Shown one piece after another: positions 6,001-25,983 of a DNA stretch of 26,095 bases. Each line of letters opens with the position of its first letter. Position 1 is the first letter of the stretch. Under the pieces are notes generated by a model that was not told where the DNA came from, did no database searches, and saw only the letters and a list, made by a program, of their open reading frames with translations. This DNA comes from a virus: the IMG/VR virus record IMGVR_UViG_3300017967_000178, positions 1 to 26,095 of that record; one strand, given 5' to 3'. A program made the position numbers and the translations under genes.

Positions 6001-9000
6001 CCAGTATATACTATTACTCCTGGTGATACTATCAAAGAAGATGGAACTGAGAACAGATATGTTGTTGCTTCTGTTGAAGATGCTGGTGAGATTGAAGATA
6101 CTTTCTACATCTTTGATATTGAAACTCTGCAGCGTAGAATTAGCGGTCAGCAAGATGGTATTTACTATCTAACTGCAATTCGTGGTAATATTTCTCCTCT
6201 ACCATTGGGTGCTGGTAACCAGCGTAACTTCCGCAACTTTAAGTTCTCGCAACCAGTCTCCTACTTGTATCCACAAAATTACAAGAACGATCCATATTGG
6301 TTCCAGTATGCTGGTACAACAGCAAATGAGAAGGCAAATGCTGCAACATTGATTGATCCACCAGCAACATACTCTGCTGCTGACAACTATGTACATGGTT
6401 TAGTTAGAACTAACGATTCTAAGTCTTCTATGACCAAGGAGACAATTCTTGATCTTATTAAGACTCCTGCGTTTGAAGATAATACTTACACCACTGTTGC
6501 AGGTGAGATTGATGCTAGAATTCAGGCACAAGAAGGTAATGCATCTTCTGGTGCTGAAGATCGTCAAATTCCTATCGCTGGTGATAACAGAGTATATGTC
6601 GATCAAAAGTGGTATGTTGAACTTCGTAGACCATCTATTGCTCGTGCTGGTAACCATACATTTGAATATCTTGGTTTCGGTCCTGGTAACTACTCCACAG
6701 GTCTCCCAGCGCGTCAGGAGATCGTCTTAACGGCGACTCAGGACTACTATGCCCAAGCGAAGCGCCAAGACGCTGGTATCGTCTTCTACACGGGTATTAA
6801 CTCGAATGGTGAACTCTACATTGGTAACCGTAAGATCAACGCTATTACTGGCGAAGAAGAGTTCCTAGAAAGAGCAGCACTGATTGACTCTGATGATACT
6901 GATGATGATATCAGTTCACTTGTTACCACCTTTGATGTTCCTGTTACATTTAACCAGAACATCACAATCAATGGTGGAGATGGAGAACTAGTTAGCAACT
7001 TCAATGCTCCTATTGCTCTCAATGTTAACAATGAAGATCTGACATTCCAACCAAATGCTCTGCAGGTTTACTCCAATGTCAATGTTACCAATCCAGATGG
7101 AACGGCAAACAACCCATTACTTGATCGTACTTCGTTTACTCCTCGTCAGACTGGAGATATCTTTATTGGTAAGAACCAAGTTAAGGCATCTCAGTTTGTA
7201 ATTAATGCGATTAGAAACGGACAGAGCTATCAGTTGCAGACACATACTACAATTGAAAGCAGTGGTGCTTTAGCATCAAATGTGACTCCAAACCAATCTA
7301 CCTTGTACACACAAGGATTTGGTGGAAGCGCATTAGATACCAAGCAAAATGTTAAGTATGGCAGTCAGGGAGCATATATTCTTCCTTCTGATGGAGATAT
7401 TCTACTTAAGGGAGAATCTGTTGAGAGATCTGGATCTCTTGGATGGATCTTTGCAAACTACTACACAAATATTCCTGCTGATAGCATTGCTTCCATTCAA
7501 TTTAATGGAACTGTTTATGTTAAGATCAATTGGAACTTAGTTAACTCTGTACAGCAAACCAATGCTACATTAGGAATCAGAGAAACCTCTAGAATCAGAA
7601 TTGATAACTTCTATCCAAATGGTGCCTTAAATTCCAATGGTGGATTCCCAATTGTTTCTCCAACCATTCAAAATGTAAATTATCCATTCGCTGCTGGCGA
7701 TACATATTGCTACATCCAAATCGGTGAAAGTATCGCTGCAGTATCTTATGATACTGATGGTGATGGACAACTTGATAACCCAGTTTCCAATCCAACTTGG
7801 GCAAACCTTGTACTAAGAGCTGGAACACCTATTAACGGTGGAACTCCTGCTCCTACAATGGACTTCTCTTCTGCAAACTGGAAAGAGACTGGAATTATTG
7901 GCGGCGAGGTTCTTAGAACTGCTACTGAAACCATTGGTGACTATAAGTTGGGAATCAACACTATTGCAGCTGCTGCTCATAGTGCATATGAAACAGCATT
8001 TGTAAGTGCTGACACAGATCCTAAGGCAAACTTAGATGTTGTTGGTACAACATGGATTAGCGGTAAGAAGGTTCTATCTTGGTTAGATGAGTCTGCTGGA
8101 ACTCTGGTAAACAGAACAGAAACGGCACAAGCAAATGCATTCCTAGTTGGTTACTTTAGAGATTCACCCGATTCTACCGCACTCTTGAGAGTCAATACTC
8201 TTACAAATAGAGTCGGTATTAACATTGCTAACAACAATACCTTACTTGATAAGACATTTGTTGTTGATGGTGAAGTTAGATTCTCTAATACTTTGACTCT
8301 AACGAATGGAACTATTGAAAGTCCTTCTGGAACCTTTAACCTAGGTCCTACAAGTACGACTATCAACCTGTTCCCAGCAGCAACTACTCTAAATGTTGCA
8401 AATACTGCAACAGCAGCTCAACAAATTAACCTAGGCAATAACACATCAAATCAAAGTATCACAGTTGGATCTGCTGCTACTCAAACTCAATTATATCTAC
8501 ATAGCAATTCTCAGAATTCTATTATTGATATCGGTACAGTATCTAACTCCAGTTCTGCATACCAGTCTACCATCCTCATGGGTGGTGCATTCCAGAATAC
8601 ATCTTCACTCTTCAATGTCAGAAACAGACTATTTAAGGCGGATGGTGATATTCAGTTTGGTACTCCATCTACTGGTATCACGAAGATGTATTCGTTCACT
8701 CCAAAACTGGAGTTGTTCAGTGCATCTGGTGGATCAAACGAAATTGATCTTTGCCGTACTGGTTCTATTCTCAGCATCGGTGCTGATGCAGGAACTACAA
8801 CCATCAATAACAGTCTATATGTTAAAGCGAGTGAAGAAGTTGACGGCAACATCACATTAAATGGTGGTCTATCTGTCGGTATCATTACTGCAACTAGAGG
8901 TATCTTCTCTACATCTACTTCATCACATGCTGTTGGCGCAACTGATGATCTCAACATTGATATTTACAGAAGAGTTGAGATTGGTAAGACGATTGACTCA

Positions 9001-10434: not shown

Positions 10435-11658
10435 ATGGCAACTTACGGAACACTTAAGACAATGAAAGCCGCCGCCATTGGCACCATCATGCCATGGGGC
10501 GGCGACTTGACTGGCATCCCACCTGGATGGTTGATCTGCAATGGGCAGACTTTGCAAGCGGATGATTTTCCATTGCTTACACAAGTAATTGGAGATAATT
10601 ATGGAGGTACAAGTTTAGCAGGAACATTTCCAAACTACACTGGATCAATTGCTCTTCCCAACATTAACCAGAGAGCACTAGTTGATATTGACTCTTCATA
10701 CTTTGATAATAGTAATACCATTGATACAACTGAAGCACTCGCTGCCCTAGTTGATCCAGTAAACCAAGCAAATTTGATTGGAACTGACATCGACAATGGT
10801 GTTGGTACTGATTATGGAGCATATACCGACATTAATTTTGCTTATACACCCGAGAGTGACTTCACTGGTAAACTAACAGGATCTCAACTCAACGATACTT
10901 TTGGTTCCAAGACAGTTTATATGTCTCACCGAAAGTTGGGAAGAAAGCATATTACTATTCATAGTCACCCAACAACATTTGATACGATGTATCTCCCCTC
11001 TTCGGGAACTAGACCTGGAGCAGGTGTTACTGCATGGGGTGAAATTAACTATCGTATTTCTCGTGCTAGTTTTGATCAACTTGACTATTCTCAGGTTCAA
11101 GCGCAGTTGACCATTCAGTATACCAATGACCAAGGATTTGGTGGCGGTGCTGCTGGTGTTGTGATTGCTAATGTTCAGGGTGAGAACCCAACATACAACT
11201 TGAAACCTGAAAATGTTGTTGGATCTCCAATTTCCAACTGGTTTGGACCATATCAGGTTCCAAACACCACCAGTAGCAATACAATGGATGAAGAGTTTCA
11301 ACAAGGAGATACTCTAGCTTATACTCCTGGCGGTGGCACTCAAACAGTTGGAAATAGAAACTTTGACCCAGGTGGTGCAAATAGCACTACTGATAGTTGG
11401 AACAAGGCGATGTATGATAGCAATGCTATCAGTTTTAATCAAAACACCGCAATTGCTGGTCAGCAAGTAGTTATTCAACCACATAACCACGAACCATTTG
11501 AAGTTCAGTTTGACAAAGCAAATTTGAGAGTTCCAACCACAACAAATACAACTGCTATCTCGAATGTTACTCCAGAAAATATTGATAAGGCATTTCGTTT
11601 GGATGTAGCAGTTCCAACACCAACTCTTATCTGTTTATACCTAATCAGAGCATACTAA
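10435..11658 (+). CDS. Tail collar domain protein 1 (short-tail-fibre-like)
   Basis: A phage tail collar domain sits at about residues 14-85, with the diagnostic GTIMPWGG, IPPGWLICNGQ and a FPLLTQVIG helix. The domain is known from T4 gp12 and many tail-fibre tips. Further on there is an HITIHSHP motif (His172, His176, His178) and a PHNHE motif (His350, His352), possible metal-binding His-X-His pairs of the kind that hold zinc in gp12 or iron in the gp37 tip. The protein ends in CLYLIRAY, an ending echoed in the two other collar proteins of this window. It starts 9 bases after the giant gene, in the same reading frame beyond two stop codons, with no strong Shine-Dalgarno sequence. It probably forms part of a receptor-contacting fibre; host target unknown. 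Confidence 0.85.
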   Translation: MATYGTLKTMKAAAIGTIMPWGGDLTGIPPGWLICNGQTLQADDFPLLTQVIGDNYGGTSLAGTFPNYTGSIALPNINQRALVDIDSSYFDNSNTIDTTEALAALVDPVNQANLIGTDIDNGVGTDYGAYTDINFAYTPESDFTGKLTGSQLNDTFGSKTVYMSHRKLGRKHITIHSHPTTFDTMYLPSSGTRPGAGVTAWGEINYRISRASFDQLDYSQVQAQLTIQYTNDQGFGGGAAGVVIANVQGENPTYNLKPENVVGSPISNWFGPYQVPNTTSSNTMDEEFQQGDTLAYTPGGGTQTVGNRNFDPGGANSTTDSWNKAMYDSNAISFNQNTAIAGQQVVIQPHNHEPFEVQFDKANLRVPTTTNTTAISNVTPENIDKAFRLDVAVPTPTLICLYLIRAY

Positions 11659-12530
11659 TGGCAAATTACGCAAGAGAAAAAGGAAAATACGGTGGTGTCA
11701 CGGGAGCAATCCAAATTTTTACCAGCGATTTGCCTCTCCAAGGAGACCCTACTGATCCACAGTGGAGACAAAAAATTCCCGCAGGATTTTTGCGTTGTGA
11801 TGGTAAAATATACAGCGCAAATGATTATCCCGAACTTGCTGCAATATTAGGTACTGGTGGTGCGTGTAAGTTTAAGAAAGAAAGTCAAACATTAGCAGAT
11901 GATCAATTTCAAGTTCCTGACATTGGAGCAAAGTATTTGAGTCCTGGATTAGCATCTGGTACTTATCAAAGCATGGTCGTTGCTCAAACCATTACTGAAA
12001 ATTCTTCTGGTGATCCTAGAGTTGGTGCAGAAGTTGTAGTTTCTGCACAGGCAAACTCTTTTACTATTGGTTATAGTGGAAATTTCACTGTTGTTGGTCA
12101 AAGTGATATCCCTTTACAGGGAAATGCAAGATTTACTCCACCTAATGAAGATATCGAGACACAAGAGACATTCTTAGATGCTTCTTCTTTCCAAGCACAT
12201 GGTCACCAAACTAATGCTAAAGTTTTAAATTATACTGGTAACTTTAAAGTTGGTGCTGAGGGAAAGAGTGGAACTGATCTAACACCATTTGCTGGAAATA
12301 GTATTATTGGTTCTGGTAACCCTACGAATGATGCTGCTGCAAACCACCTACATAATATTCAATGGCCTACTTCTCCAGATTATGAGCAGAATTTTGTTTA
12401 CTCATTTCCAACATTCAATGTTGGAGCAGATAATTTGCAGACCACATTAACCGTCCAAACAAAAACAATTGACGAGTTACCAGAGTCTATCCAACCATTT
12501 ATTCTAGTTGAATATATTATTAAATTTTAA
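11658..12530 (+). CDS. Tail collar domain protein 2
   Basis: This 290-residue protein has a collar domain at about residues 15-95, marked by GAIQIFTSD, IPAGFLRCDGK and DYPELAAILG followed by the FQVPDIG strand. Two His-X-His motifs follow: HGH (His181, His183) and HLH (His230, His232). The C-terminus ILVEYIIKF resembles that of the third collar protein. Its ATG overlaps the previous stop in TAATG, which suggests translational coupling with collar protein 1. It is much shorter between the collar domain and the C-terminus than its two paralogues, so it may be the minimal form. The role is a fibre or baseplate structural protein by family; exact position in the virion is not shown. Confidence 0.82.
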   Translation: MANYAREKGKYGGVTGAIQIFTSDLPLQGDPTDPQWRQKIPAGFLRCDGKIYSANDYPELAAILGTGGACKFKKESQTLADDQFQVPDIGAKYLSPGLASGTYQSMVVAQTITENSSGDPRVGAEVVVSAQANSFTIGYSGNFTVVGQSDIPLQGNARFTPPNEDIETQETFLDASSFQAHGHQTNAKVLNYTGNFKVGAEGKSGTDLTPFAGNSIIGSGNPTNDAAANHLHNIQWPTSPDYEQNFVYSFPTFNVGADNLQTTLTVQTKTIDELPESIQPFILVEYIIKF

Positions 12531-14578: not shown

Positions 14579-17500
14579 ATGGCAACTCAAACAGTCACCT
14601 ATGATCAAGCAGGTACATACAATATTGTATTACCAACTAATGTGAAATCTCTCACATATGAGATTCGTGGTGCGTCTGGTGGCGGCACTGGTCCTGGTAT
14701 TGCTATCAACCCAGTTTTTACTCCTGGAGATCAAATTGATGGTGGTCCTGGTGAAAGGATAACTGGGCAATTTTCTGCCGCTGCAGTTTCTGGTAAGACA
14801 TTAGTCGTTGTTATTGGGACAAAAGGTTTTAATGGAACTACTAACTTTGGCACTGATAGTGCTGCTGCTGGTGGTACTGGAGCATTTAATGGCGGTGCTG
14901 GTGGATCACAACCTGGCGGCGAAGTTATTTGTAACTCTGGTGGTGGAGGAGGTGGAGGTTCTGCTACCACAGTTAGTATTGATAATGGATATGTTCTTAT
15001 TGCAGGAGGAGGTGGTGGTGCAGGCGGTGCTACTTATGATCAGTGGGATTCTCAGTATAGAGAACCAAACGGTAGTGCTATAAATCCTGGAACTGTTGGT
15101 ACTACACTAAATGCTTCATCGGGTCAAGCGGGTGCTGCTGGAAACCTTAGTGCTAACGCTGGTTCAGGTGGCGGCGGTGGTGGAAACAACGGAAACTTTT
15201 ATAATGACGGTGGTGCTGGTGGTGCGGCAGTTGCTTCAGGAAACCATATTGGTGGTAACCATGGTCAGAAGGGTGGAAGTTATAGAGACACTAATTTTGT
15301 CAGCGAAGCATCACCAGTAGCAAATGCTTTTAGAGATAATGATGGATTCTTTGAATTGACATATGAAACTGGAGATCCACCCAATGTCCAGTTCAGTGTT
15401 GCTCCTGCTGCTGTTATTGTTAATGGAACTGGTGCTACTTTAAGTTGGGAAGCCAGTGGTGACGCAGCATCTGCTCCTACAAGTGTTACATTAAACGGTG
15501 TAGCAGTTCCGTTCATTGGTAGTCAAGCTGTTAATCCGAATGCAACAACAATTTATACTCTTGTTGCTGAAGGTCCTGGAGGAGTTACATCAGATAGTAT
15601 TACATTAACTGTTGTTCCAGAAGGAAATGCTTTAAATAATGAATTTGTTACTACCTATGGTATTGGTAGTCACACGCTGTTTGTTCCAGCAGGAACAACT
15701 AATGCTTTTGTTACAATCGCTGCTGGTAGAGGAGGTAGTGGTGGATCTGATGCTGGTGGATCTGGATGTCCTGGTGGAGCTGGTAGGGTAGGACAATTTA
15801 GACTAAAAGATGATGGCGCTGGAAATCCATATGGCGCTGGTGGATCTGTAAATCAGACAATCTATCAAGATACTACAGTTGCAGTTCCTGCTAATATAGA
15901 CACACTTAACTATGAAATACAAGGTGGTAAAGGAGGAGATACCTCTGCCTTTACTACTGGACATTTGGGACAAAAAATTACTGGTGTTCTAACAAATATT
16001 GCTGGGCAAACATTGAGCATTAAAGTTGGTGGTAATGGTGGTGCTGGTAACTCTGCGATTGATCTTGGTAGTGCTGGTCAGGGTTATAATGATGGTGGTG
16101 CTGGTGGATTAGGTGCCACGGTCAGTAGTACATACATTACAGTTCCACTGTACAGGTATTTTAATAGCACAACGGGAGATCATTTTACTGGGTTGTCTGC
16201 TACTCCTCCAACTGGATATGCTTTAGAGGGACAAATTGCAAATGTCTTTAGTGATCCACAACCACCAGGAACTATTGCTATATCTGATGCTGAACCAGGA
16301 AAACCATCTAGTACATATACTGCATATGCTTTTCCTCCAACTGGTACACCACCATTCTTTATTGATGTAACTGAGATTGCAACAACTGTCTTTTATGCAA
16401 AGACAAATGGAACTGATGTTTTGTGGACATCTGATGCAACTGAAGGAAATGCAAATGGATATACCTTAGATACTTCGAATAATGCGTTTGGATATGTATT
16501 CTACGCACCAACTTCTCCTGTTAATTTAAGCGTTGATGGTGAAACAGGAACTAGAGGTGGCGGCGGTGGGGGATCTAGTGCCATTCATATTGGTAACACC
16601 GTATTGGTTGTTGCTGGCGGTGGTGGTGGTGCTGGTGGTCAAGATGCTTGTGGAACACTTAATCAAACTGGTGGTCAGGATAATGGTATTTTGTATACAA
16701 CAGGTGCCAGAACTGATGGATTAGATGGCAGCGACGCCCAAACCAATGGCGGCGGTGGTGGCGGTGGCGGCGCTGGCGGTGGTTGGACTCCCACAAATTT
16801 ACCTGGAGATGGTGGTGGACCTTGCGAAGGTGGTACTGGAGGTAAAACTGGCAATGGATATTATAATCTTGCATATTCACAGAATGCTGGAGTTTTATCT
16901 CAGGGAGATGATTTTAACTCTGGTAATGCATATGTAAAGTTAACTGGTGCTGGAGCAAATGATTGGAATTTAATTCTGAGAGTTGGAGATCAAGGTAGTA
17001 ATGGTGCATCTGGATCTCCTGGTGGAAAACCTGGAGGTCAAGGCGGTGCTGGCGCAGCAGGGTTCATGGACGGCGGCGGCGGAGGATCTGACAGTCTAGG
17101 TGGTGGATGGTCTGGATCTGGCGCTGGTGGTGGTGCAGGATCTGGCATCTATGACACAGACAACCAACGCTGGTTTGCCGCTGCAGGCGGCGGCGGTGGT
17201 GGTGGAGGTGGATCGTGGAACCGCAGTTGCTCGGGAACTGCCGCTTCTGGTGGAACATGGTCTGCTACTACTAATGTTAATAACGCAGATGGTGGCGCTG
17301 GTGCTAACTGCGGTGGAGACGGTGGTGGAGGCGGCGGAGGCGGCGGCGGTCACTCAGGTGGCGGTGGTGGCGGCGCTGGTGTTGATAATAATTATGGTGG
17401 TTCTTCTGGTGGAGGAGGAACATCTAGATATGATGATAATGCACTAGAACTACTTCAGGGTGGCAGCACAAATAGTGCAAGTGGATATGCTATTGTTTCA

Positions 17501-18943
17501 TTCTCAGTACCACCTTCTATTCAGTATTTTAGAGCAAATGATGATGCTCCAACAACAGATGCTTACGAAGGAGATCTTGTAGTTTTATCTTGGAGTACAT
17601 TCTTCAATGGCATCGAAACAGCATCATTTGCAGAAATAGACAATGGCATTGGTGCTGTTAGTGTTGGGGATGGTAACACTTATACAATAACTGCTCCATC
17701 TGAAACGACAACATACACAATGACAGTTAGTAATGCTGGTGTATTCTCTCAAAGATCTGTTACTGTAAATGTTCTCGCTCCAGATGATATTCCAGACATC
17801 TTTACTTTTGATAGTATTTTTGACGCAGATATTTCAACACTTTACGAGAGCAATGAAGTAACAATTAGTGGCATTCAAGTTCCAGTTACTGCATCGGCAT
17901 CAAATGGAGGTGCAATATCAGTTAATGGAGGTGCATATTCCCAAAATGTTCAAACTGTAAACAATGGCGACACTGTTAGAGTTAGAATGGAATCCTCTGG
18001 ATCATATACAACAAAGAAAACTAGTACAGTCACTGTTGGATTGACAGTTGCTACTTGGTCAATTACTACTGTTAGTGAACCAGGACAGTTTCCAAATGCA
18101 TTTGAATTTGAAGATGTTCAAGATGCTCCAACTAGCACATATGTTGAGAGTAATGAAGTTACGATCACTGGTATCACTACGCCAGTTTTAGTTTCTTCTC
18201 CAACAAATGGATTTCAAAGTTCTGTTAATGGAAGTGCTTACAGCACATCACAAAAAGTTATTAACAATGGAGAAGTTTTAAAATTAAGAGTATTAACTAG
18301 TGGAATCTTGGGGGAAACTGTCACAACATCAGTAACTGTTGGAGACAGTCCTAATAAGAATTGGAATGTTACTAATGTTGCAACAGCAGACCAAGATCCA
18401 AACTATTTTGATTTTGTTAATGTTGTTGGAGCTGCAGCAAGTACATTGACAACCAGTTTGGCACAAGTCATCACTGGAATCAATGTTCCAACCCCAGTTA
18501 CACTGACCAATGGAGCAGAGTTTAGAGTAAATGGTGGTAATTGGTTAACAAGTGGCAATGTTAATGTTAATGATTCTGTTGAGTTGAGGATTACTTCTAG
18601 TGCTGATTATGGTGGTGAAGTTGAGACTGAGGTTACTATCGGATCTCTCACTGATGTATGGAAAGTTATCACAACATCTGATGGTGATCAAATTCCAGAT
18701 GCTTTCTACTTTATTAATCAAACAAATCAAACACCAAACACATTTGTATACAGCAATACTGTTCTTGTTCAAGGTCTTACTGCTGCAGCAAACATTACTG
18801 TAAGTGGCGGTAGTTTTAAAGTTGGAAATGGTGGTTGGGTCACTAGCGGTCAAATAAATAACGGTGAGACATTGCGTTTAAGAATACTTACACCTAATGG
18901 TCTCAATCAAACAGGAAGCATGTCAATCACAGTTGGTCCATAA
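14579..18943 (+). CDS. Large glycine-rich adhesin with Ig-like modules
   Basis: The order of parts in this 1454-residue protein is: glycine-rich unit I (residues 1 to about 265, starting QTVTYDQAGTYNIVLP); an Ig-like domain (about 269-347); a short and then a long glycine-rich start (EFVTTYG near 355, QTIYQDTT near 427); a DUF5648-like domain (about 522-646, VPLYRYFNSTTGDHF and GYALEG); glycine-rich unit III (about 655-985) with runs such as GGGGGG; a second Ig-like domain (about 981-1067); and four Ig-like modules (1069-1454). Glycine-rich sandwich domains form the receptor-binding tips of T4-type adhesins such as gp38, so this is the best candidate receptor-binding protein here. A short collagen-like Gly-X-Y stretch lies at residues 803-828. 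The gene starts directly after the previous stop (TAAATG). Alternative: a structural fibre without direct receptor contact. Confidence 0.75.
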   Translation: MATQTVTYDQAGTYNIVLPTNVKSLTYEIRGASGGGTGPGIAINPVFTPGDQIDGGPGERITGQFSAAAVSGKTLVVVIGTKGFNGTTNFGTDSAAAGGTGAFNGGAGGSQPGGEVICNSGGGGGGGSATTVSIDNGYVLIAGGGGGAGGATYDQWDSQYREPNGSAINPGTVGTTLNASSGQAGAAGNLSANAGSGGGGGGNNGNFYNDGGAGGAAVASGNHIGGNHGQKGGSYRDTNFVSEASPVANAFRDNDGFFELTYETGDPPNVQFSVAPAAVIVNGTGATLSWEASGDAASAPTSVTLNGVAVPFIGSQAVNPNATTIYTLVAEGPGGVTSDSITLTVVPEGNALNNEFVTTYGIGSHTLFVPAGTTNAFVTIAAGRGGSGGSDAGGSGCPGGAGRVGQFRLKDDGAGNPYGAGGSVNQTIYQDTTVAVPANIDTLNYEIQGGKGGDTSAFTTGHLGQKITGVLTNIAGQTLSIKVGGNGGAGNSAIDLGSAGQGYNDGGAGGLGATVSSTYITVPLYRYFNSTTGDHFTGLSATPPTGYALEGQIANVFSDPQPPGTIAISDAEPGKPSSTYTAYAFPPTGTPPFFIDVTEIATTVFYAKTNGTDVLWTSDATEGNANGYTLDTSNNAFGYVFYAPTSPVNLSVDGETGTRGGGGGGSSAIHIGNTVLVVAGGGGGAGGQDACGTLNQTGGQDNGILYTTGARTDGLDGSDAQTNGGGGGGGGAGGGWTPTNLPGDGGGPCEGGTGGKTGNGYYNLAYSQNAGVLSQGDDFNSGNAYVKLTGAGANDWNLILRVGDQGSNGASGSPGGKPGGQGGAGAAGFMDGGGGGSDSLGGGWSGSGAGGGAGSGIYDTDNQRWFAAAGGGGGGGGGSWNRSCSGTAASGGTWSATTNVNNADGGAGANCGGDGGGGGGGGGGHSGGGGGGAGVDNNYGGSSGGGGTSRYDDNALELLQGGSTNSASGYAIVSFSVPPSIQYFRANDDAPTTDAYEGDLVVLSWSTFFNGIETASFAEIDNGIGAVSVGDGNTYTITAPSETTTYTMTVSNAGVFSQRSVTVNVLAPDDIPDIFTFDSIFDADISTLYESNEVTISGIQVPVTASASNGGAISVNGGAYSQNVQTVNNGDTVRVRMESSGSYTTKKTSTVTVGLTVATWSITTVSEPGQFPNAFEFEDVQDAPTSTYVESNEVTITGITTPVLVSSPTNGFQSSVNGSAYSTSQKVINNGEVLKLRVLTSGILGETVTTSVTVGDSPNKNWNVTNVATADQDPNYFDFVNVVGAAASTLTTSLAQVITGINVPTPVTLTNGAEFRVNGGNWLTSGNVNVNDSVELRITSSADYGGEVETEVTIGSLTDVWKVITTSDGDQIPDAFYFINQTNQTPNTFVYSNTVLVQGLTAAANITVSGGSFKVGNGGWVTSGQINNGETLRLRILTPNGLNQTGSMSITVGP
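16142..16516 (+). other. DUF5648-like domain inside the glycine-rich adhesin
   Basis: Residues 522-646 contain LYRYFNSTTGDHF followed by GYALEGQIANVF, then a second half with TVFYAKTNGTDVLWT and GYTLDTSNNAFGYVFY. This matches my memory of DUF5648, an extracellular repeat found in bacterial surface and secreted enzymes, with its R-[FY]-[FY]-N and GDHF hallmarks. Glycine-rich units flank it on both sides, so it looks inserted into the adhesin. A sugar-binding role is only a guess. Confidence 0.6.
17783..18940 (+). repeat. Four-module Ig-like repeat block, copy B
   Basis: Modules start at 17783, 18080, 18386 and 18686, with lengths of 297, 306, 300 and 255 bases. Three of the four lengths are identical to the equivalent modules of copy A (13403-14575). 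Shared rank-specific phrases include SSPTNGFQSSVNG / SAPTNGFESSVNG in module 2 and RITSSAD in module 3. Confidence 0.8.
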
Positions 18944-20610
18944 TGGCGTATACTACTACTTGGTCTGTATCCACATATGCTAGTGCTGACAATGTGCAGT
19001 TCGGGCATTGGTACAGTCAGCGAAATCCTAAATTGGATGGAATGACCATCGGAACAGTTATGTCTATCTTTAGAGATAAGACAGGCAACTGGGGTACTCT
19101 TGATGGAACTCTTACATCTAGGTTTCCTGGATGGATTGAATGTGATGGTAGAACAGTAAGTGCAGAAGATTTTCCAGATTTGTTTGATGCGATTGGAACA
19201 AAATATGGTGGTACTGCTACAAAAACACAGAGCGGTAACACATATACCTATTCTGGAAATTTTGTACTACCAAACTATCACAACAGAAAATTATTTGGTA
19301 TTGGAAATGTAGATGGTAACTCTCCATCCTCTCCTTCTATAGTTACTTACAAAGGTCCAGATGTTACTCAAGGTGCTAGTGGAGATTCTACTACTGTCGG
19401 ATCTAGTGGTGGAAACTGGTTTATTAAAAAAATTGATGCGATTGGCGATCCTCCAGATGAACAAGTTTACCCTGGTATTACTGAACCAGATGGTCAGGTT
19501 GTAGGATTTCAATTGTGGCAAAATGAGGATATTCCTACGGATGGATATGTAACCAAAGCTATTGGTGAATGGGTACAAAGAAATGAGGGTGGTACTCAAA
19601 ACTGGTGGAATAATATAAATGAATTCCAAGAGGCAGATATTACAATTAGTGGTGGTACTGGCACTGGACTGCAAATTAGAGTAAGAGCAGAAGCACAATA
19701 TGAGGATGATGGAGTTACTGTTGGGGACACCAGATTTAAAATTCTTTCTGTATTAAATCCTGGCGAAGGATATGCTGTGGGTGATACAATGAATATCACA
19801 TTTCCATCAGCTGCCCCTGGTGGAGGAACTATTACTTTTAATCCTGGTCTTAGGGTTCTGACAGTAACAGATGAATTTACTACTAACACGGAAGGTAAGT
19901 TCTTTAAGTTAGGTTCTCTTTCAACAACTGGCATCGATGGCATTCAAGGTCAGACAGAGTTTAATATTGTTGGTAATTTGACAGCAGCTATTGGACCCTT
20001 GGGAGGCACACCAACTATTCCAGCGCAACACACTCATGATATTATTTCAGCGACTGTAGATGCTATTGGTGTCGGATATGTTGCGTGGGGAACTCCTGCT
20101 TTCTATCAAATTGGTACTGGTGAAATTGGTTCCGCTACTTATTCGAGCATCGGTTATAATACTGTAGTATCTCCTGGTGGAGAACTTAACTTTACCTTCA
20201 ACAACTATTGGGCGGGAACTGCTCAAAACAGCATTCCTGGACTTCCTAGCGGAGGTAATGCATCTGCTGGTATTGGTGTAAACGAAGTCCAAGGCAATAT
20301 GATTGTCTATAACCCAGGAACATTACTGACACATACGCACTATTTACAGCAGAATGATTTTGGTGACGCTGAAAATGTATATGGATATGGTAATGAAAAT
20401 GGGGGAGGTATTTCTGCTGGAGGCATGGCAACCAATAATACAACAACTATTAATTTTTCTCAAACAGATCTCGCTATTGCTGCAAATGAACCATCATTTG
20501 AGTTAAACTTGTCCAAGACAGTTGTACCTACACCATCTCTTGTACCAGAAACCACTATTCCACTGTTGACTAAATACCATCGAGTCAAGTATATTATTAA
20601 AGCATACTGA
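18943..20610 (+). CDS. Tail collar domain protein 3
   Basis: A collar domain lies at about residues 36-122: GTVMSIFRD, FPGWIECDGRTV, EDFPDLFDAIG and FVLPNYHNRKLFGIG. It is preceded by about 35 extra residues. Two His-X-His motifs follow, HTH at His363/His365 and HTH at His464/His466, and the C-terminus reads RVKYIIKAY, like the other two collar proteins. The middle part (about residues 125-350) is Gly/Thr-rich and unassigned; it may be where host specificity varies. The ATG overlaps the adhesin stop in TAATG. By family it is a short-tail-fibre-like structural protein. Why this phage needs three collar proteins in one operon is not evident. Confidence 0.83.
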   Translation: MAYTTTWSVSTYASADNVQFGHWYSQRNPKLDGMTIGTVMSIFRDKTGNWGTLDGTLTSRFPGWIECDGRTVSAEDFPDLFDAIGTKYGGTATKTQSGNTYTYSGNFVLPNYHNRKLFGIGNVDGNSPSSPSIVTYKGPDVTQGASGDSTTVGSSGGNWFIKKIDAIGDPPDEQVYPGITEPDGQVVGFQLWQNEDIPTDGYVTKAIGEWVQRNEGGTQNWWNNINEFQEADITISGGTGTGLQIRVRAEAQYEDDGVTVGDTRFKILSVLNPGEGYAVGDTMNITFPSAAPGGGTITFNPGLRVLTVTDEFTTNTEGKFFKLGSLSTTGIDGIQGQTEFNIVGNLTAAIGPLGGTPTIPAQHTHDIISATVDAIGVGYVAWGTPAFYQIGTGEIGSATYSSIGYNTVVSPGGELNFTFNNYWAGTAQNSIPGLPSGGNASAGIGVNEVQGNMIVYNPGTLLTHTHYLQQNDFGDAENVYGYGNENGGGISAGGMATNNTTTINFSQTDLAIAANEPSFELNLSKTVVPTPSLVPETTIPLLTKYHRVKYIIKAY

Positions 20611-20618
20611 GGTAGATT

Positions 20619-21278
20619 ATGGGAGCACAACCGATTCGTCCACTAGAATTGATGGACGATCCAAATATCACGCAGTCCGATTTTACGGACTTTATTGGAG
20701 TTTGGGAAAATTTTGTACCAAAAACTAGGTGTGAGGCACTTATTAAACACTTTGAAAATGTCGCTAACAACGCTTCCGTTGCTCAAAGTTTTGATGATGC
20801 TATTGGTGGGTCAATTGCTGATGGCACAAACCAATTTCCGAATGGTTCACTAGGTAGAAAAGATGAATCAATTCTGTTAAATTATTCCGATCCTAATCTA
20901 AACTATGAGGTGAATCAATATCTTACCGCGTGTGTTCAGCACTATGTAAAAAAATATGATCAGTTGAAACATGGTAAGTATGTATCTGAAGATTCAAAGA
21001 TGCAGAAAACAAAACCAGGCGGTGGATATCATGTTTGGCATTATGAAAGTGCAGGATTTGGACACCATGCTAGAGAGTTGGTGTGGATCATTTATCTAAA
21101 TGATATGCCAGATGGTGAGGCAGAGACTGAATTTCTTTATCAGCGTAGAAGAATCAAACCAACTGTAGGAACAGTAGTTGTTTGGCCAGCAGGTATGACA
21201 CATGTACATAAAGGCAACACGGTGTTCACTCAAGATAAATACATTTTGACAGGATGGTACATTAAGGTTCCAAATTAA
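20619..21278 (+). CDS. 2OG-Fe(II) oxygenase, prolyl-4-hydroxylase-like
   Basis: The second half of this 219-residue protein carries a double-stranded beta-helix oxygenase pattern. GGGYHVWHYE gives a probable first iron-ligand pair His141-x-Glu143 (HxE instead of the commoner HxD). LVWIIYLND is the following strand. TVVVWPAGMTHVHKG gives the distal His195 (or His197), and Lys207 in DKYILTGWY is the likely 2-oxoglutarate contact. Length and order fit prolyl-4-hydroxylase-like phage enzymes. A real Shine-Dalgarno sequence (GAGG, six bases from the ATG) lies between the collar gene and this start, unlike most genes here. Such enzymes hydroxylate a protein or small-molecule carbon using O2 and 2-oxoglutarate. 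The substrate is unknown; the position after the fibre genes makes a virion protein plausible. Confidence 0.75.
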   Translation: MGAQPIRPLELMDDPNITQSDFTDFIGVWENFVPKTRCEALIKHFENVANNASVAQSFDDAIGGSIADGTNQFPNGSLGRKDESILLNYSDPNLNYEVNQYLTACVQHYVKKYDQLKHGKYVSEDSKMQKTKPGGGYHVWHYESAGFGHHARELVWIIYLNDMPDGEAETEFLYQRRRIKPTVGTVVVWPAGMTHVHKGNTVFTQDKYILTGWYIKVPN

Positions 21279-21279
21279 A

Positions 21280-22227
21280 ATGGCAGAATACTTCTATCAA
21301 AAACCAACGGACGACGAGATTAGGGAATTTTGGTCGAAGACCATTAGACCTAGAGAGTCTGTCATGGAGTTGAATTTTGCCGAAAAGGCAGTCACTCTCG
21401 GTAATGTTGCAGAGGGAGGAAGAACTACATTTGTCGATGAAAAAGCATGGACAGATATTGTTCTTCCCGCTATTTCTGCCGAGTGGCATGATCCTGGCAA
21501 GGATGAAATTAAAATTTTAGTCCTTTATAGTGATAACACATATCTTTGCTTCAGAAAGAAAATTAGATATGAATTTGACACAAATTCAACTAGGTGGGTA
21601 GATTATACCTATAAGAAGGGAAATGTTTCTGATGTAAAAGCAATTTACGAGACAATTCGTGCAGTTGCTATAATCCAAAAAGAAGCGAAGGAAGCAGAAC
21701 TCCTAGAAGAAGTTAGAAAGTTGAATCTAGAAGCACTTGACTATTACTATGATAGTAAGTGGTACAAGAAAATGGATGAAATTCAGAAATTACTATTGTA
21801 CTCTGATTTTAGAGTCCTTCCTGATGCACCTCAAAAATTTGATGGTGAGAGAGATCTGTGGATCACTTGGAGACAAAGACTTAGAACGCTTCTTCCAAAG
21901 AATCCAAGAGAAGAGTTTGCAGATAACTTCGAGATGTTTAAATTTGTACAAACTCTCAAGTATCCAATTGATCCTAGAGTTTATCTAGATATGTACCCAG
22001 ATCGTGATGTTGAATATCTATCAACTGATGATCAGTTTAAAAAGTATGACTTCCAAGTTTCGAAAGATTTTGTTGGTAAGACACAATTGAACTTGATTCA
22101 GTTCTTAGAGACATATGATGCTAATACTAGACCTATTGAGAAAAAGGTGTTAGACTTAGCAAAGCAATTACGATTAGAGACTGTATACGAAGGATTGAAC
22201 TACGAAAAATTTGTTGCTGAAGAGTGA
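21280..22227 (+). CDS. Hypothetical protein, possible tail/fibre assembly chaperone
   Basis: I do not recognise the whole 315-residue protein. Residues about 118-155 are strongly charged and heptad-like (KEAKEAELLEEVRKLNLEA), suggesting a coiled coil. Residues 194-232 (LWITWRQRLRTLLP followed later by LKYPIDP) resemble the W-x-x-[YW]-R-x-x-LR-x-L ... P-x-x-P signature at the end of phage tail-fibre assembly chaperones. No catalytic motif or membrane segment is seen. It starts 1 base after the preceding oxygenase stop and is followed 3 bases later by another oxygenase. Assembly proteins commonly sit right behind fibre genes, which supports but does not prove the call. Confidence 0.45.
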   Translation: MAEYFYQKPTDDEIREFWSKTIRPRESVMELNFAEKAVTLGNVAEGGRTTFVDEKAWTDIVLPAISAEWHDPGKDEIKILVLYSDNTYLCFRKKIRYEFDTNSTRWVDYTYKKGNVSDVKAIYETIRAVAIIQKEAKEAELLEEVRKLNLEALDYYYDSKWYKKMDEIQKLLLYSDFRVLPDAPQKFDGERDLWITWRQRLRTLLPKNPREEFADNFEMFKFVQTLKYPIDPRVYLDMYPDRDVEYLSTDDQFKKYDFQVSKDFVGKTQLNLIQFLETYDANTRPIEKKVLDLAKQLRLETVYEGLNYEKFVAEE

Positions 22228-22230
22228 TTT

Positions 22231-22875
22231 ATGATTTATGAATATGATATGCTCCCAAAAGGAGTTGTGAAAAATATATTAGATTTCTATCAGTTCTGTG
22301 AGTTTACTGATGGATCTTGGTCTGGATCTTCAAAGCGAGAACTCAAATATAATGAACAATTGTTGGATCAAGTTCATTATCCAACAATGGTTTCCTTGAT
22401 GAACAAGTATATCTCTGAAAATCAGGGATTTAATTATTATTTCATGCCTCGGGGTCATACACATCCAAACTTTCTTAGATATAAAGAAGGGATGCATTAT
22501 GATTGGCATAATGATATGTGGATTATGGATGGTATCAAGACAGATTATAGTATAACTGTATTTCTTAGTGAACCCGATGAGTATGAAGGTGGGGAGTTGG
22601 AAATTAAGGTTGGCGATTCTGTTAGAGAATATAAACTTGAAGCAGGTAGAGGAGTAATTTATCATACAGGACTTCAACATAGAGTTAAACCAGTTATTAG
22701 TGGTGAACGAAATGTAGTTACATGGTGGTTCTGCTCTATGATTGATAATGGTAAAGTTCGAGATATACTCACTGATTTCTCTCGTGTTCTTTCTGAACTT
22801 GATCATGACCATCCATTGAAATGGAAATTTGAAACTATTCGTCAAAATTTGATTAGAGAACATGCAACTTTCTGA
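22231..22875 (+). CDS. PKHD-type 2OG-Fe(II) hydroxylase (YbiX/PiuC-like)
   Basis: The core FLRYKEGMHYDWHND, then ITVFLSEPDEYEGGELEI, then GVIYHTGLQHRVKPV, then GERNVVTWWFCSM follows the order and spacing of the PKHD-type hydroxylase family (YbiX/PiuC). Likely iron ligands are His93, Asp95 and His150, with Arg160 contacting 2-oxoglutarate. At 214 residues it is close to the usual family length, and the C-terminal helix after SM (VRDILTDFSRVLSELD) is also typical. All expected catalytic residues appear present, so it is probably active. It overlaps the next oxygenase by 14 bases. The substrate is unknown; bacterial relatives are often linked to iron uptake genes. Confidence 0.85.
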   Translation: MIYEYDMLPKGVVKNILDFYQFCEFTDGSWSGSSKRELKYNEQLLDQVHYPTMVSLMNKYISENQGFNYYFMPRGHTHPNFLRYKEGMHYDWHNDMWIMDGIKTDYSITVFLSEPDEYEGGELEIKVGDSVREYKLEAGRGVIYHTGLQHRVKPVISGERNVVTWWFCSMIDNGKVRDILTDFSRVLSELDHDHPLKWKFETIRQNLIREHATF

Positions 22876-23380
22876 TATTGTAGAATACCAAAACTTTTTT
22901 GGTCCTACGGATTTCTTATCAATCACAAGATCTATAAGCAATAAACCGTGGTATTGGGGTCATGTAAGTCATCCAAAACAAAGTCAGGGACTTCCTCCAT
23001 TTTGGCAGATGCCTCTGAATGATGACAAGTTCTTTACTAACTATCTCCTAAATAAGATTGAAGAAAATACTGGCGTTGAATATGACCTTGAGCGTGTTTA
23101 CGCAAATGGTCAAACCTATGGTATGAGAGGCAGTATTCATCAAGATGGTTTTGATGAGAGTTGTAGAACTCTACTATATTATCCAGTTGAAACTTGGAAT
23201 CCAGAGTGGAATGGCAAAACTGCTTTTAAACTTGGATCTGAATATCGTTATGTTGTTCCTGAACCAAATAAAGCAGTTATATTTCCTGGTGCAATACCAC
23301 ATTGGGCAGAAGAAACTTCAAGAACATTTGCTGGACTAAGAATAACAATCGCATGGAAGCTCTTCATTAAAGTAAAATGA
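22862..23380 (+). CDS. 2OG-Fe(II) oxygenase
   Basis: This 172-residue protein has YGMRGSIHQDG (His93-x-Asp95), a strand and turn CRTLLYYPVETWNPEWNGKT, then AVIFPGAIPHWAEET (His147) and FAGLRITIAWKL (Arg160). This is the standard HxD...H...R layout of a small 2OG-Fe(II) oxygenase, similar to those frequently found in cyanomyoviruses. The start overlaps the previous gene by 14 bases. An ATG at this position gives a family-like N-terminus, so I keep it. The stop overlaps the next start as ATGA. Residue layout suggests an active enzyme; substrate unknown. Confidence 0.8.
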   Translation: MQLSDIVEYQNFFGPTDFLSITRSISNKPWYWGHVSHPKQSQGLPPFWQMPLNDDKFFTNYLLNKIEENTGVEYDLERVYANGQTYGMRGSIHQDGFDESCRTLLYYPVETWNPEWNGKTAFKLGSEYRYVVPEPNKAVIFPGAIPHWAEETSRTFAGLRITIAWKLFIKVK

Positions 23381-23712
23381 ACTATCAGGTATACGAATTT
23401 CAAGAAATCATTGAGCAGGCAATCCAATGGAGGAGAAGACCTACTGTTTTCGTTCGTAATATCGGTCCACGAGCAATCACGGACGAAGCAAAGAGAAATG
23501 AAGTTTATGGCACATACAGAATGCTGTTAACTTCTGATGTGATGCAAGGACTTTTGAACAATGAATATATTTTCATCTCGTTTGACGATCTAGATGATGC
23601 TAGAGCATACGCTGTTGATAATTTCCCACGCAACTCTAATGGTGATCCTGATTTTTATATTAGGGTCGAAGTATATGATAATGAAGGAAGAATCGAGTAC
23701 CATAACAGATAA
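23377..23712 (+). CDS. Hypothetical protein, 111 residues
   Basis: I do not recognise this gene. It starts by ATGA overlap with the preceding oxygenase and ends 2 bases before the next gene, so it is very likely real. The protein is acidic towards the C-terminus and soluble-looking, with a basic patch QWRRRPTVFVRN near residues 18-29, a helix-like TYRMLLTSDVMQGLL segment, and a FDDLDDARAYAVDNFP stretch. No signal peptide, membrane segment or known catalytic motif is visible. It may be an accessory partner of the neighbouring oxygenases or a small structural protein; neither can be chosen from sequence. Confidence 0.7.
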   Translation: MNYQVYEFQEIIEQAIQWRRRPTVFVRNIGPRAITDEAKRNEVYGTYRMLLTSDVMQGLLNNEYIFISFDDLDDARAYAVDNFPRNSNGDPDFYIRVEVYDNEGRIEYHNR

Positions 23713-23714
23713 TC

Positions 23715-24578
23715 ATGGCAGTAACCGAACATTATATGGGTGCTCAAGAGCACAGTATTAACACAGAGACATTCTTAAATTACCATAGATATGTTCCTCA
23801 GGCATATGTAAAGTATGATCTGATTGCTGAACCTGCTCGTTTAAAGTTGCAAGAGTTTTGGGATTTCATTGTAAAAGCAACTATTAGACCAGGATTTAAT
23901 TCTACAGCAGTTTTAAAAAAGAATGATTCTGGAGTCTGGTTTACGACTGTAGATAATACATTTTCTGAAGATCTTGCATTCCATGCATATAGCACCGTAG
24001 ACTATAGTTCTGTTGATCGTGATGAACTATATGGTTTGTTTGGTAAACAGGAACCACAGTTAATGTGTGCATTAAGACAGGAAAAACTTGATATTGGTTT
24101 AGAGGGAGTATCTATTTCTCCTGATGGTGAGATACAGAAGTATATTTTTGTATTCAGACCTAATTCACATGTTCTGTCACTCTTGAATCTACCAAACTAT
24201 GAGAATATGCAGAAGTTTGTAGATCTCAGTTTTGAAGAGTTTAAGACATCTACCACTGCTTCCACATCATTCAGTTCACCAATTCGCTTGCAAGTTGATC
24301 CAGAAGATGATACACTGTCTGTAGAATTTGTCAGTGCCTTCTTCCAGAAAGATTTCTACATTAGTGGTGGCAATCATGATACTTATCTCAATAGAAAAAA
24401 CCTCTATTTTGATAGAATGATCGAATCTGAGTTGTTAACAGAAGATGAGGTTGCATATTGCAAAACAAATAGTCCATCTTGGCAGCAATTCTCTATCAAG
24501 TTTAAGTATAGAGGTGGAGAACTAATTGATAAGAAACTGTACACATTCGATGTAAGTGATTTTGAAACTGTAGTATGA
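23715..24578 (+). CDS. Hypothetical protein, 287 residues
   Basis: I do not recognise this gene. It is a soluble mixed alpha/beta protein with no signal peptide. Two beta-hairpin-like phrases resemble one another: GEIQKYIFVF at residues 138-147 and GELIDKKLYTF at 268-278. A DxDxLSVEFVSAFFQ-like strand lies between them. There is no HxD...H...R oxygenase set, so it is not another copy of its neighbours. It begins 2 bases after the previous stop and its stop overlaps the next start (ATGA), so it is clearly part of the operon. A sugar- or prenyl-type transferase fold was considered from the repeated hairpins but is not supported enough to name. Confidence 0.65.
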   Translation: MAVTEHYMGAQEHSINTETFLNYHRYVPQAYVKYDLIAEPARLKLQEFWDFIVKATIRPGFNSTAVLKKNDSGVWFTTVDNTFSEDLAFHAYSTVDYSSVDRDELYGLFGKQEPQLMCALRQEKLDIGLEGVSISPDGEIQKYIFVFRPNSHVLSLLNLPNYENMQKFVDLSFEEFKTSTTASTSFSSPIRLQVDPEDDTLSVEFVSAFFQKDFYISGGNHDTYLNRKNLYFDRMIESELLTEDEVAYCKTNSPSWQQFSIKFKYRGGELIDKKLYTFDVSDFETVV

Positions 24579-25141
24579 TTCTTGGTAATATTATTCATGA
24601 GTACAAACTTGATTGTGATCAAATAAACAAACAAGTAATTGATTTTCTCTACGACTATAAAAAAGTAAAATCTGATTCTGATGTCAGGTCCAATAGAAAT
24701 GGATGGCAGAAGAATCATTTAGAAGTATTTCCACAACTCAAACCACTGACAGATCTGATTGCTGTTGAGTTTGAGAAATTTATTATCAACGAAATGTTGC
24801 CACTGGTAGAAACTAGATTCTATCTTGGTAATCTGTTCTGCAATATTAATCCTCCTGGAGCAGGAAATGTTCCTCATGTACATCAGGGAGATTTTACTGG
24901 TGTATATTATTTGCAAGCACCTGAAGATTGTGGTATACTAGGAATCCTGAACCCACATCAATGTTCAAATACTGCAAGAATGACAGCATTGTTTGCTGCT
25001 GTTAAATTAGAACAGAAAATTGTTCCCGCTGCTGGTGTAGGATATTTCTTCCCAACACATCTTGTCCATTATGTTGAGGAGAATAGATCGACTGAGGATA
25101 GAATTTCATTGTCATACAATATTAATGTTGAACCAAAATGA
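24575..25141 (+). CDS. 2OG-Fe(II) oxygenase, TIGR02466-like
   Basis: Conserved stretches are CNINPPGAGNVPHVHQGDF, then FTGVYYLQAPEDCGIL, then VGYFFPTHLVHYVEEN and RISLSYNIN. They match in order the putative 2OG-Fe(II) oxygenase family I know as TIGR02466/PF13759, widespread in cyanophages and marine bacteria. Metal-site candidates are His101 and His103 (an HxH pair, as usual for this family, rather than HxD), the distal His165, and Arg176 for 2-oxoglutarate. The start is coupled to the preceding gene by ATGA, and its stop overlaps the next start in the same way. The reaction is presumed O2- and 2-oxoglutarate-dependent; the substrate is unknown for the family as far as I know. Confidence 0.85.
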   Translation: MILGNIIHEYKLDCDQINKQVIDFLYDYKKVKSDSDVRSNRNGWQKNHLEVFPQLKPLTDLIAVEFEKFIINEMLPLVETRFYLGNLFCNINPPGAGNVPHVHQGDFTGVYYLQAPEDCGILGILNPHQCSNTARMTALFAAVKLEQKIVPAAGVGYFFPTHLVHYVEENRSTEDRISLSYNINVEPK

Positions 25142-25722
25142 TTTGCAGAGTTCTTGATGGATTATTTGATCCCGTCTATCTACATCAAATAGACGCACTG
25201 GTGAGAGATATTCCCCTGTGTACAAATAATATTGCTAATAGGAAAACATATCCTTATGGTACAGAGGGCACACATAGATTAATGGGTCAGATTCTATTCA
25301 ATCGTGAAGATATTAATACTATCACTACATTGAAACCAGAATGTGAGGAATTTTTCAAGATACTCAAGGTAGTTGAGAAAGAACTCAATGCATACTTCTA
25401 TTGCTCTCAGATTACTGTTAATGTTCAGCACTCTGGGTGTGATGGTACTACACATGTTGACAGTCCTGACCCAAACGACTATACTATCTTACTGATGTCT
25501 AATGGCATTTGGAAACAAGAGTGGGGAGGAAAGTTTCAATTGATTGCAGATGATGAAGTTCTTGAAGAACATGACTATATTCCTGGTAGAGTCATTGTAG
25601 TGCCATCAAAGCACCCTCATAGAGGTCTTGGACCAACAGAACCATATGTGTATAGGTCATCTGTAGCATTTAGAGTAACTCCTCTCGATTATCATCTTCG
25701 TAAGAATTATCAAGGACAGTAA
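25138..25722 (+). CDS. 2OG-Fe(II) oxygenase
   Basis: This 194-residue protein has CDGTTHVDSPDP (His106-x-Asp108), then YTILLMSNGIWKQEWGG, then PGRVIVVPSKHPHRG (distal His161 or His159) and YVYRSSVAFRV (Arg173). This is a full HxD...H...R set with the GG turn typical of prolyl-4-hydroxylase-like enzymes acting on protein or small-molecule substrates. N-terminal residues 1-90 contain YPYGTEGTHRLMGQILF and two helices that probably cap the barrel. The start overlaps the previous stop (ATGA) and its own stop overlaps the last small gene (TAATG). It is probably active; substrate unknown. Confidence 0.8.
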   Translation: MICRVLDGLFDPVYLHQIDALVRDIPLCTNNIANRKTYPYGTEGTHRLMGQILFNREDINTITTLKPECEEFFKILKVVEKELNAYFYCSQITVNVQHSGCDGTTHVDSPDPNDYTILLMSNGIWKQEWGGKFQLIADDEVLEEHDYIPGRVIVVPSKHPHRGLGPTEPYVYRSSVAFRVTPLDYHLRKNYQGQ

Positions 25723-25952
25723 TGAAAGTACCAACACAATATGAACTGCAGCATATGCAACTACAAGCAATGCTCCGTGATCACAATATCCCAGAGACTG
25801 AGATCAAATACTTGGGTGAATTTGAATACACTGCTGAATACACAGCACATCCAGAATTGCATGGTTACATGATGCATTGGTATCGCATTGCTAATGAACA
25901 TGAAGTTCCTGTCTGTGACATTCAATCTGTGGATCGAGTGGACGATCAATAA
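25722..25952 (+). CDS. Small hypothetical protein, 76 residues
   Basis: I do not recognise this protein. It starts by TAATG overlap with the preceding oxygenase gene, and its stop lies 10 bases before a terminator-like hairpin, so it is the last gene of the unit. It is rich in His and Met in the middle (HPELHGYMMHWYRIANEHE) and acidic at the end (DRVDDQ). No membrane segment or signal peptide is seen. A metal- or enzyme-partner role could be imagined from the His content, but nothing proves it. Confidence 0.6.
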   Translation: MKVPTQYELQHMQLQAMLRDHNIPETEIKYLGEFEYTAEYTAHPELHGYMMHWYRIANEHEVPVCDIQSVDRVDDQ

Positions 25953-25962
25953 ACTGTCACAC

Positions 25963-25983
25963 GGGGTCTTCGGACCCCTTTCT
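25963..25983 (+). terminator. UUCG tetraloop hairpin, probable terminator
   Basis: GGGGTC (25963-25968), loop TTCG, and GACCCC (25973-25978) form a perfect six-pair stem with an exceptionally stable tetraloop, followed by TTTCT. It sits 10 bases after the last stop codon of the long unit and before a new gene. The T-run is short, so termination may be partial. No other such hairpin separates the genes upstream. Confidence 0.75.

Follow-up and report, generated by a model that had tools for sequence, protein, structure and literature searches.

Five 2OG-Fe(II) oxygenase genes of a T4-like cyanomyovirus lie around a predicted tail-fibre assembly chaperone in a conserved operon

Enzymes that depend on 2-oxoglutarate (2OG) and Fe(II), the 2OG-Fe(II) oxygenases, are among the commonest auxiliary genes of ocean cyanophages, and the genome of S-SCSM1 alone carries 24 of them (PMC9602691). 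They have been proposed to act in nitrogen and 2OG metabolism, given the many 2OG genes and the NtcA sites in these genomes (PMC3037559; Sullivan et al. 2010), in DNA repair, as AlkB-like enzymes in Syn9 (PMC2984593), and in an unspecified reprogramming of the host (PMC9602691, PMC9146016). A structural survey found that a 2OG oxygenase of S-H9-1 resembles human EGLN3 (TM 0.87; PMC12774648). In the open-access literature that we searched, no specific substrate of a cyanophage 2OG oxygenase was found. Here we analyse a 26-kb IMG/VR fragment (IMGVR_UViG_3300017967_000178, 26,095 nucleotides; hereafter the window) from a T4-like cyanomyovirus; among isolates, Synechococcus phage Sf-CH1b comes closest to it (81% identity at the nucleotide level, over 99%). 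It encodes five 2OG-Fe(II) oxygenases, labelled A to E, which follow the fibre genes in head-to-tail order (20619-25722). Sequence comparison supports a physical, evolutionary and promoter-level tie between these oxygenases and fibre assembly. Hydroxylation of fibre proteins is the best reading because the enzymes belong to hydroxylase-related families, sit in a fibre-assembly operon, are accompanied by late-promoter motifs and diverge together with the fibre.

Six fibre/adhesin genes (49-20610) precede nine closely spaced genes on the + strand that end at 25952, and the intervals from the last fibre gene (end 20610) onward are 8, 1, 3, -14, -4, 2, -4, -4 and -1 nucleotides. An earlier note on this DNA had placed five 2OG-Fe(II) oxygenases of distinct subtypes (prolyl-4-hydroxylase-like, PKHD-type and TIGR02466-like) at 20619, 22231, 22862, 24575 and 25138, coupled to each other and to the fibre genes by gaps of at most 8 bases. 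The open frames, the family profiles and the spacing bear this out. The note had also counted the interspersed genes as unknown proteins and overlooked the one between A and B (21280-22227; T4-GC 741), which by its sequence is a tail-fibre assembly chaperone, a divergent member of Phage_tail_APC. The encoded protein matches phrog_4697 (tail assembly chaperone) with E 1.5e-55; of the 15 orthologues that were aligned, 9 match PF16778 (Phage_tail_APC; best E 2.5e-13), which is not detected in the window protein.

The block is a conserved Kyanoviridae operon and is not peculiar to the window. The shared order is last fibre, A, chaperone, B, C, small protein, orphan protein and, in part of the group, D and E. 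It is present in S-PM2, Syn1, S-CAM1/3, ACG-2014e/i/j, Sf-FP1, S-H9-2, S-RIM44 and others, and is reduced or rearranged in S-RSM4, S-MbCM7 and S-H9-1. The comparison of neighbourhoods across cyanomyoviruses that the earlier note had proposed thus recovered a chaperone-centred operon. The cluster is not new to databases, where it is annotated gene by gene in S-PM2, Syn1 and others. What stands of the note's "undescribed system" is that the open-access literature searched held neither a description of the block as one system nor a proposal that these genes modify fibres, subscription papers lying outside that search.

Chaperone queries run against IMG/VR, together with the reference loci, yielded a non-redundant set of 97 chaperone loci; tighter alignments served in these scans, since one of 15 chaperone sequences was too divergent to use. 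A lies immediately 5' of the chaperone in 76 of the 97 (median gap 1 nucleotide); 3' of the chaperone come B, C, the small protein (phrog_4883) and the orphan, in that order. Among the 62 loci with enough flank, oxygenase content is nested (A < AB < ABC), with 48 loci carrying ABC, three AB, two A and nine none, and no other combination occurs. In oxygenase-free loci the small protein is directly 3' of the chaperone and the two genes touch, so the oxygenases are insertions that flank the chaperone within an otherwise compact unit. Taken together, 12 complete relatives have 108 2OG genes, and 39 of these are inside the 7.4-kb block. Rotation of gene positions predicts 4.1 and reached at most 21 in 20,000 trials, never 39 (0/20,000), a statistic to be read with the caveat that homology to A or to the chaperone is what brought these genomes into the set.

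Searches of the PDB with orthologue profiles bear out the subtypes. A (20619-21278; T4-GC 240, phrog_61) and B (22231-22875; T4-GC 28) pass Pfam PF13640 at 35.5 and 53.1 bits (cut-off 27), and D (24575-25141) passes PF13759 at 48.2 bits. C (22862-23380; T4-GC 166, phrog_274) and E (25138-25722; phrog_274) fall below the PF13640 cut-off (23.1 bits, E 1.5e-4, and 20.8 bits, E 7.6e-4), and their membership of the 2OG-Fe(II) superfamily is backed by orthologue profiles. The A profile finds Bacillus and Pseudomonas prolyl-4-hydroxylases (3itq, E 3.5e-10), and the B profile matches PKHD/PiuC-type enzymes over the full length (3dkq, E 5e-40; 9ghl, E 8e-38). Against the NCBIfam equivalog for PiuC/YbiX, B scores 128.5 bits, under the cut-off of 143; no TonB-dependent iron receptor, the partner of PiuC/YbiX-type enzymes, is annotated in the phage neighbourhoods of B examined, and B sits instead in a phage fibre operon. 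C, of EGLN/OGFOD1/FlmC-like type, and its divergent relative E are loosely related members of a single family (24.7% identity, E 1e-7), whose joint profile weakly matches OGFOD1, EGLN1 and Pseudomonas 4iw3. The D profile matches 3bvc/2rg4, and D passes the TIGR02466 cut-off.

The active sites are strictly conserved, counting distinct homologues that have a letter at the position. The A site, H141-x-E143..H197..K207, is invariant in 106 of 106 homologues, and an H-x-D..H..R site is invariant in B (H93-x-D95..H150..R160; 89/89), C (H93-x-D95..H147..R160; 83-86 homologues) and E (H106-x-D108..H161..R173; 11/11). D carries H101-x-H103..H165..R176 in 19 of 19 homologues, with D106 not conserved, and so is without the carboxylate of the classical triad; its metal may be held by three histidines. 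The recognisable metal-site layout that the earlier note saw in all five enzymes therefore holds in its H-x-D..H..R form for B, C and E. A retains an H-x-D/E...H triad and a basic 2OG residue as HxE with Lys, and D falls outside the triad. For all eight genes from A through E, dN/dS (the nonsynonymous to synonymous substitution ratio) against Sf-CH1b is 0.08-0.15, values that are rough because dS is near or over saturation. The catalytic residues of A to E are intact and under purifying selection, and the enzymes are presumably active.

These assignments bear on the roles proposed before. That the enzymes consume 2OG, or act on metabolites, and thereby steer the nitrogen or energy status of the host is the published proposal (PMC3037559), which started from the abundance of 2OG genes and from NtcA sites and was repeated for S-SCSM1 (PMC9602691). 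We consider it quite unlikely for this block: five diverse enzymes with strict active sites and with ties to a chaperone and late motifs fit bulk 2OG consumption poorly, and the closest solved relatives include protein hydroxylases. DNA repair, whether AlkB-like or through DNA endonuclease V, as RefSeq names C, can call on existing annotations and on the uvsX/uvsY neighbours in Syn9 (PMC2984593). It is extremely unlikely here, with no AlkB or endonuclease V chain among the PDB matches of the A, B, C/E and D profiles (matches of C/E were inspected for endonuclease V as far as E 1), an invariant H-x-D..H..R in C and E, and an operon linked to fibre and not to repair. Members of phrog_274 (e.g. 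YP_009321297.1, YP_195263.1) are publicly named DNA endonuclease V despite their conserved 2OG oxygenase site, and the present assignment corrects this misleading RefSeq name on many cyanophage genes.

The enzymes could instead act on glycans of the host surface, on lipids or on a diffusible molecule, and so aid adsorption, release or superinfection exclusion. Such a role would suit genes that adjoin host-contact genes, and C weakly matches a FlmC-family 2OG oxygenase model (NF052475; 54.6 bits, far under the cut-off of 240). The operon is, however, without glycan- or lipid-processing genes, and four of its oxygenases (A, B, C and E) look like protein hydroxylases, which makes this alternative very unlikely. 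The FlmC name attached to the C match does not point to the Caulobacter protein, which is a cytidylyltransferase unrelated to that model.

Protein hydroxylases need not act on phage proteins. Pseudomonas PPHD modifies EF-Tu, and OGFOD1 modifies the ribosomal protein uS12. The oxygenases could thus be late-expressed enzymes whose targets are host translation or other proteins of the host, with their place in the fibre operon reflecting a shared late promoter only. The C/E match to OGFOD1, EGLN1 and 4iw3, the A match to a P4H-type (prolyl-4-hydroxylase-type) enzyme and the many more 2OG genes of the same superfamily away from fibres would agree with this. It leaves unexplained the nested insertion around a fibre chaperone and a divergence that follows the fibre, and late-promoter motifs make a takeover of the host less natural; we regard it as unlikely.

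The promoter evidence comes from the cyanophage late promoter NATAAATA, published for S-PM2 (PMC2984593). Its ATAAATA core occurs only twice in the window against 6.7 expected on both strands, and both copies are on the coding strand just 5' of gene starts. One (18854-18860, + strand) lies in the 3' end of the preceding gene, 89 nucleotides 5' of the last fibre gene, and Sf-CH1b has it at the identical distance. Several relatives carry a second motif 34-40 nucleotides before the last fibre, in S-PM2, Syn1 and others as the variant CTAAATA. The other copy (21235-21241, + strand) falls within the codons GAT-AAA-TAC (D-K-Y) of A, 45 nucleotides before the chaperone start, and includes the codon of K207, the cosubstrate-binding position by alignment. 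This motif is present in 70 of 75 non-redundant A genes upstream of a chaperone, where codon use predicts 37.3 ± 4.2, and the lysine codon is AAA in all 75 against a usage of 67%. A relatives in chaperone-free phages have it at about chance level (13/33; Fisher 5e-9 against the 70 of 75), and it precedes the chaperone in only 1 of 21 chaperone loci that lack A. By its promoter distance and a conservation beyond coding need, the copy at 21235 is a probable late promoter. The arrangement predicts two late transcription units, one with the fibre and A, the other with the chaperone, B, C and onwards. At the codons of the cosubstrate-binding lysine of A (window 21235-21241; loci L006-L017 and L204-L208), the same letters are constrained both as coding sequence and as promoter.

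Evolutionary association was examined with pairwise protein distances over 17 genomes. A correlates with the last fibre at rho 0.87 and with the chaperone at 0.84, B with the last fibre at 0.66, and A and B range overall from 0.63 to 0.87 against fibre and chaperone. Against portal gp20 or capsid gp23, A and B reach only 0.06-0.36, while gp20 and gp23 correlate with each other at 0.86. ACG-2014j and ACG-2014e illustrate this, with gp20 and gp23 almost identical and fibre and A strongly different. In the nine genomes carrying a helicase that was used for comparison, every gene correlates, backbone included. Last-fibre types differ among the oxygenase-content classes. Fibre residues conserved in the presence of A and absent without it (V, L, L, E, A, A, S, N, N) could have arisen by chance.

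From this evidence we propose that A to E are late-expressed protein hydroxylases acting on fibre/adhesin chains, a reading to which we give an even chance. The five enzymes would be part of a late fibre-assembly operon. Late in infection, the last collar-type fibre would be made, followed by the chaperone with the oxygenases encoded on both of its sides. Using host 2OG, O2 and Fe(II), the oxygenases would hydroxylate side chains, with Pro the likeliest target for A, B, C and E and the target of D uncertain. They would act before the fibre/adhesin chains trimerise, either on freshly synthesised chains or on those bound to the chaperone; the hydroxylation could tune folding, stability or receptor contact and so attachment, and several subtypes could serve several sites or fibres. 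The earlier note had suggested a fibre- or adhesin-modification set: operon structure, co-divergence, late-promoter motifs and hydroxylase-related families all favour such a set, and that its substrate is the fibre we infer. More tentatively, the block could represent a dedicated phage fibre-hydroxylation pathway, in which a set of P4H-, PKHD-, EGLN/OGFOD- and TIGR02466-type enzymes matures cyanomyovirus adhesins in an oxygen-dependent manner, built stepwise (A, B, C, then D/E) around the chaperone and turned on from a late promoter inside the cosubstrate codons of the first enzyme.

Several observations weigh against fibre hydroxylation. S-WAM2 and Sf-FR1 have the fibre and the chaperone and no adjoining oxygenases, and the chaperone tree places at least two losses of A within one clade. 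Within that clade we found no last-fibre domain that tracks the gain or loss of A and no fibre Pro or Lys column that changes with it. Collagen-like G-x-y repeats, sought as P4H targets, occur only as short runs within the glycine-rich protein. In the 12 complete genomes 69 of the 108 2OG genes (about 64%) lie outside the block, which therefore does not explain the whole oxygenase repertoire. Of 28 loci examined in which an A relative lies outside the operon, only about 8 have a tail-fibre gene close by; the largest neighbours of the others are a dehydrogenase, a helicase, endonucleases, a methyltransferase or nothing recognisable. The earlier note had held that oxygenases lying mostly away from fibres in relatives would speak against a fibre role; this is so for the whole repertoire and for A relatives elsewhere, and not for the orthologues of the block, in which A adjoins the chaperone. 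In addition, bacterial PiuC works with iron uptake (PMC12004947). Linkage in a recombining cassette is by itself sufficient for the shared divergence, and the promoter embedded in A offers a non-functional reason for A to stay beside the chaperone.

The last two points lead to a further alternative, hitch-hiking, in which the oxygenases have unrelated functions and are kept by a fibre cassette that is a recombination hot spot and by the chaperone's promoter within A. It accords with the absence of A from some very similar cassettes, with the same superfamily being found elsewhere in the genome and with the nine-genome helicase comparison, which does not separate linkage from function. It does not account for three to five enzymes of the same class in a fixed nested order around a chaperone, nor for the separate occurrences in which an A relative neighbours some other fibre, and we judge it improbable.

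These separate cases and the literature support fibre hydroxylation only in part. A relatives lie near different tail fibres in other phages (loci L283, L322, L311, L266, L288, L294 and L302). ORF23 of S-TIM4, an A homologue, adjoins a tail-fibre gene and, together with fibre and baseplate genes, acquired mutations when populations were evolved on cyanobacterial hosts (PMC6224464). In the same study ORF23 was not particle-associated, and the authors tied it to nutrient limitation. The likeness of the S-H9-1 oxygenase to EGLN3, from an independent structural survey (PMC12774648), also counts in favour.

The small protein (23377-23712; phrog_4883, T4-GC 742) and the orphan (23715-24578; T4-GC 743 position) gave nothing credible in PDB profile searches, and the orphan has no Pfam, PHROG or PDB family match. 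The orphan is restricted to loci in which A, B and C are all present and diverges fast (<20% identity to most orthologues). The final gene (25722-25952) encodes a small protein of phrog_2020 and is followed by an intrinsic-terminator-like hairpin (25963-25978, + strand), GGGGTC-TTCG-GACCCC then TTTCT, the probable end of the unit. In Sf-CH1b two more 2OG oxygenases flank the cluster, one just 5' of the giant fibre (9766-10362) and one about 0.6 kb past E (38696-39361), a position beyond the extent of the window.

Upstream, the candidate substrates on the + strand are two Collar-domain short-fibre proteins (10435-12530; 10435-11658 and 11658-12530) and a glycine-rich (20% Gly) fibre/adhesin-like protein of 1454 amino acids (14579-18943). 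The last fibre gene before the oxygenases (18943-20610, + strand) encodes a Collar domain (PF07484), two HxH motifs and the C-terminus KYIIKAY. Each of the three collar-type proteins (10435-11658, 11658-12530 and 18943-20610) has two HxH motifs (e.g. AQHTH, LTHTH), a motif that in the T4 gp37/gp12 tips binds iron or zinc, and HxH motifs are also present in the last fibre of oxygenase-free loci. The giant tail-fibre-like gene (49-10425) encodes a protein of 3458 amino acids with segments that resemble phycobiliproteins; searched as a whole, it matches PF00502 at E 3e-9. The phycobiliprotein-like segments (window 550-1020, 2230-2640 and 3340-3720) have a common C-x-R-D-x-G...D-L...GGN pattern, and the third, taken by itself, has no Pfam match. 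In the PDB the first segment matches almost exclusively phycocyanin or phycoerythrin chains (best E 0.011).

The fixed, chaperone-centred set provides a concrete and testable substrate hypothesis for five oxygenase subfamilies, and phages with the same chaperone and no adjoining oxygenases offer a natural control. Hydroxylated fibres, if they exist, would make adsorption dependent on the oxygen, iron and 2OG of the infected cell.

Among known systems, the closest in gene order is S-PM2 p226-p233 (T4-GC 740, 240, 741, 28, 166, 742, 743, 101), which is arranged as in the window. D is present in S-PM2, Sf-FP1, S-H9-2 and Sf-CH1b, as in the window, and the window and the Sf-CH1b group add E right after D, unlike the block of S-PM2, Syn1, S-CAM1/3 and ACG-2014e/i/j. 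From other Phage_tail_APC (PF16778) chaperones that of the window differs by the oxygenases on both flanks and by a late-promoter motif supplied from the preceding oxygenase gene. A matches the Bacillus P4H 3itq, of a family (3itq, 5hv0) that includes protein prolyl hydroxylases, and the joint C/E profile matches Pseudomonas PPHD (4iw3) in sequence; unlike these enzymes, A has HxE and Lys replacing HxD and Arg and lies in a phage fibre operon. B aligns over its full length with PiuC, YbiX and CciO and shares their H-x-D..H..R, but it scores under the equivalog cut-offs, has no TonB receptor partner and adjoins a fibre chaperone. C and E share the H-x-D..H..R core of the EGLN and OGFOD1 prolyl hydroxylases, although their sequence similarity to these is weak and the phage has no eukaryotic-type substrate. 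D is a member of the TIGR02466 family (3bvc, 2rg4) by cut-off, with its site in the invariant form H-x-H..H..R.

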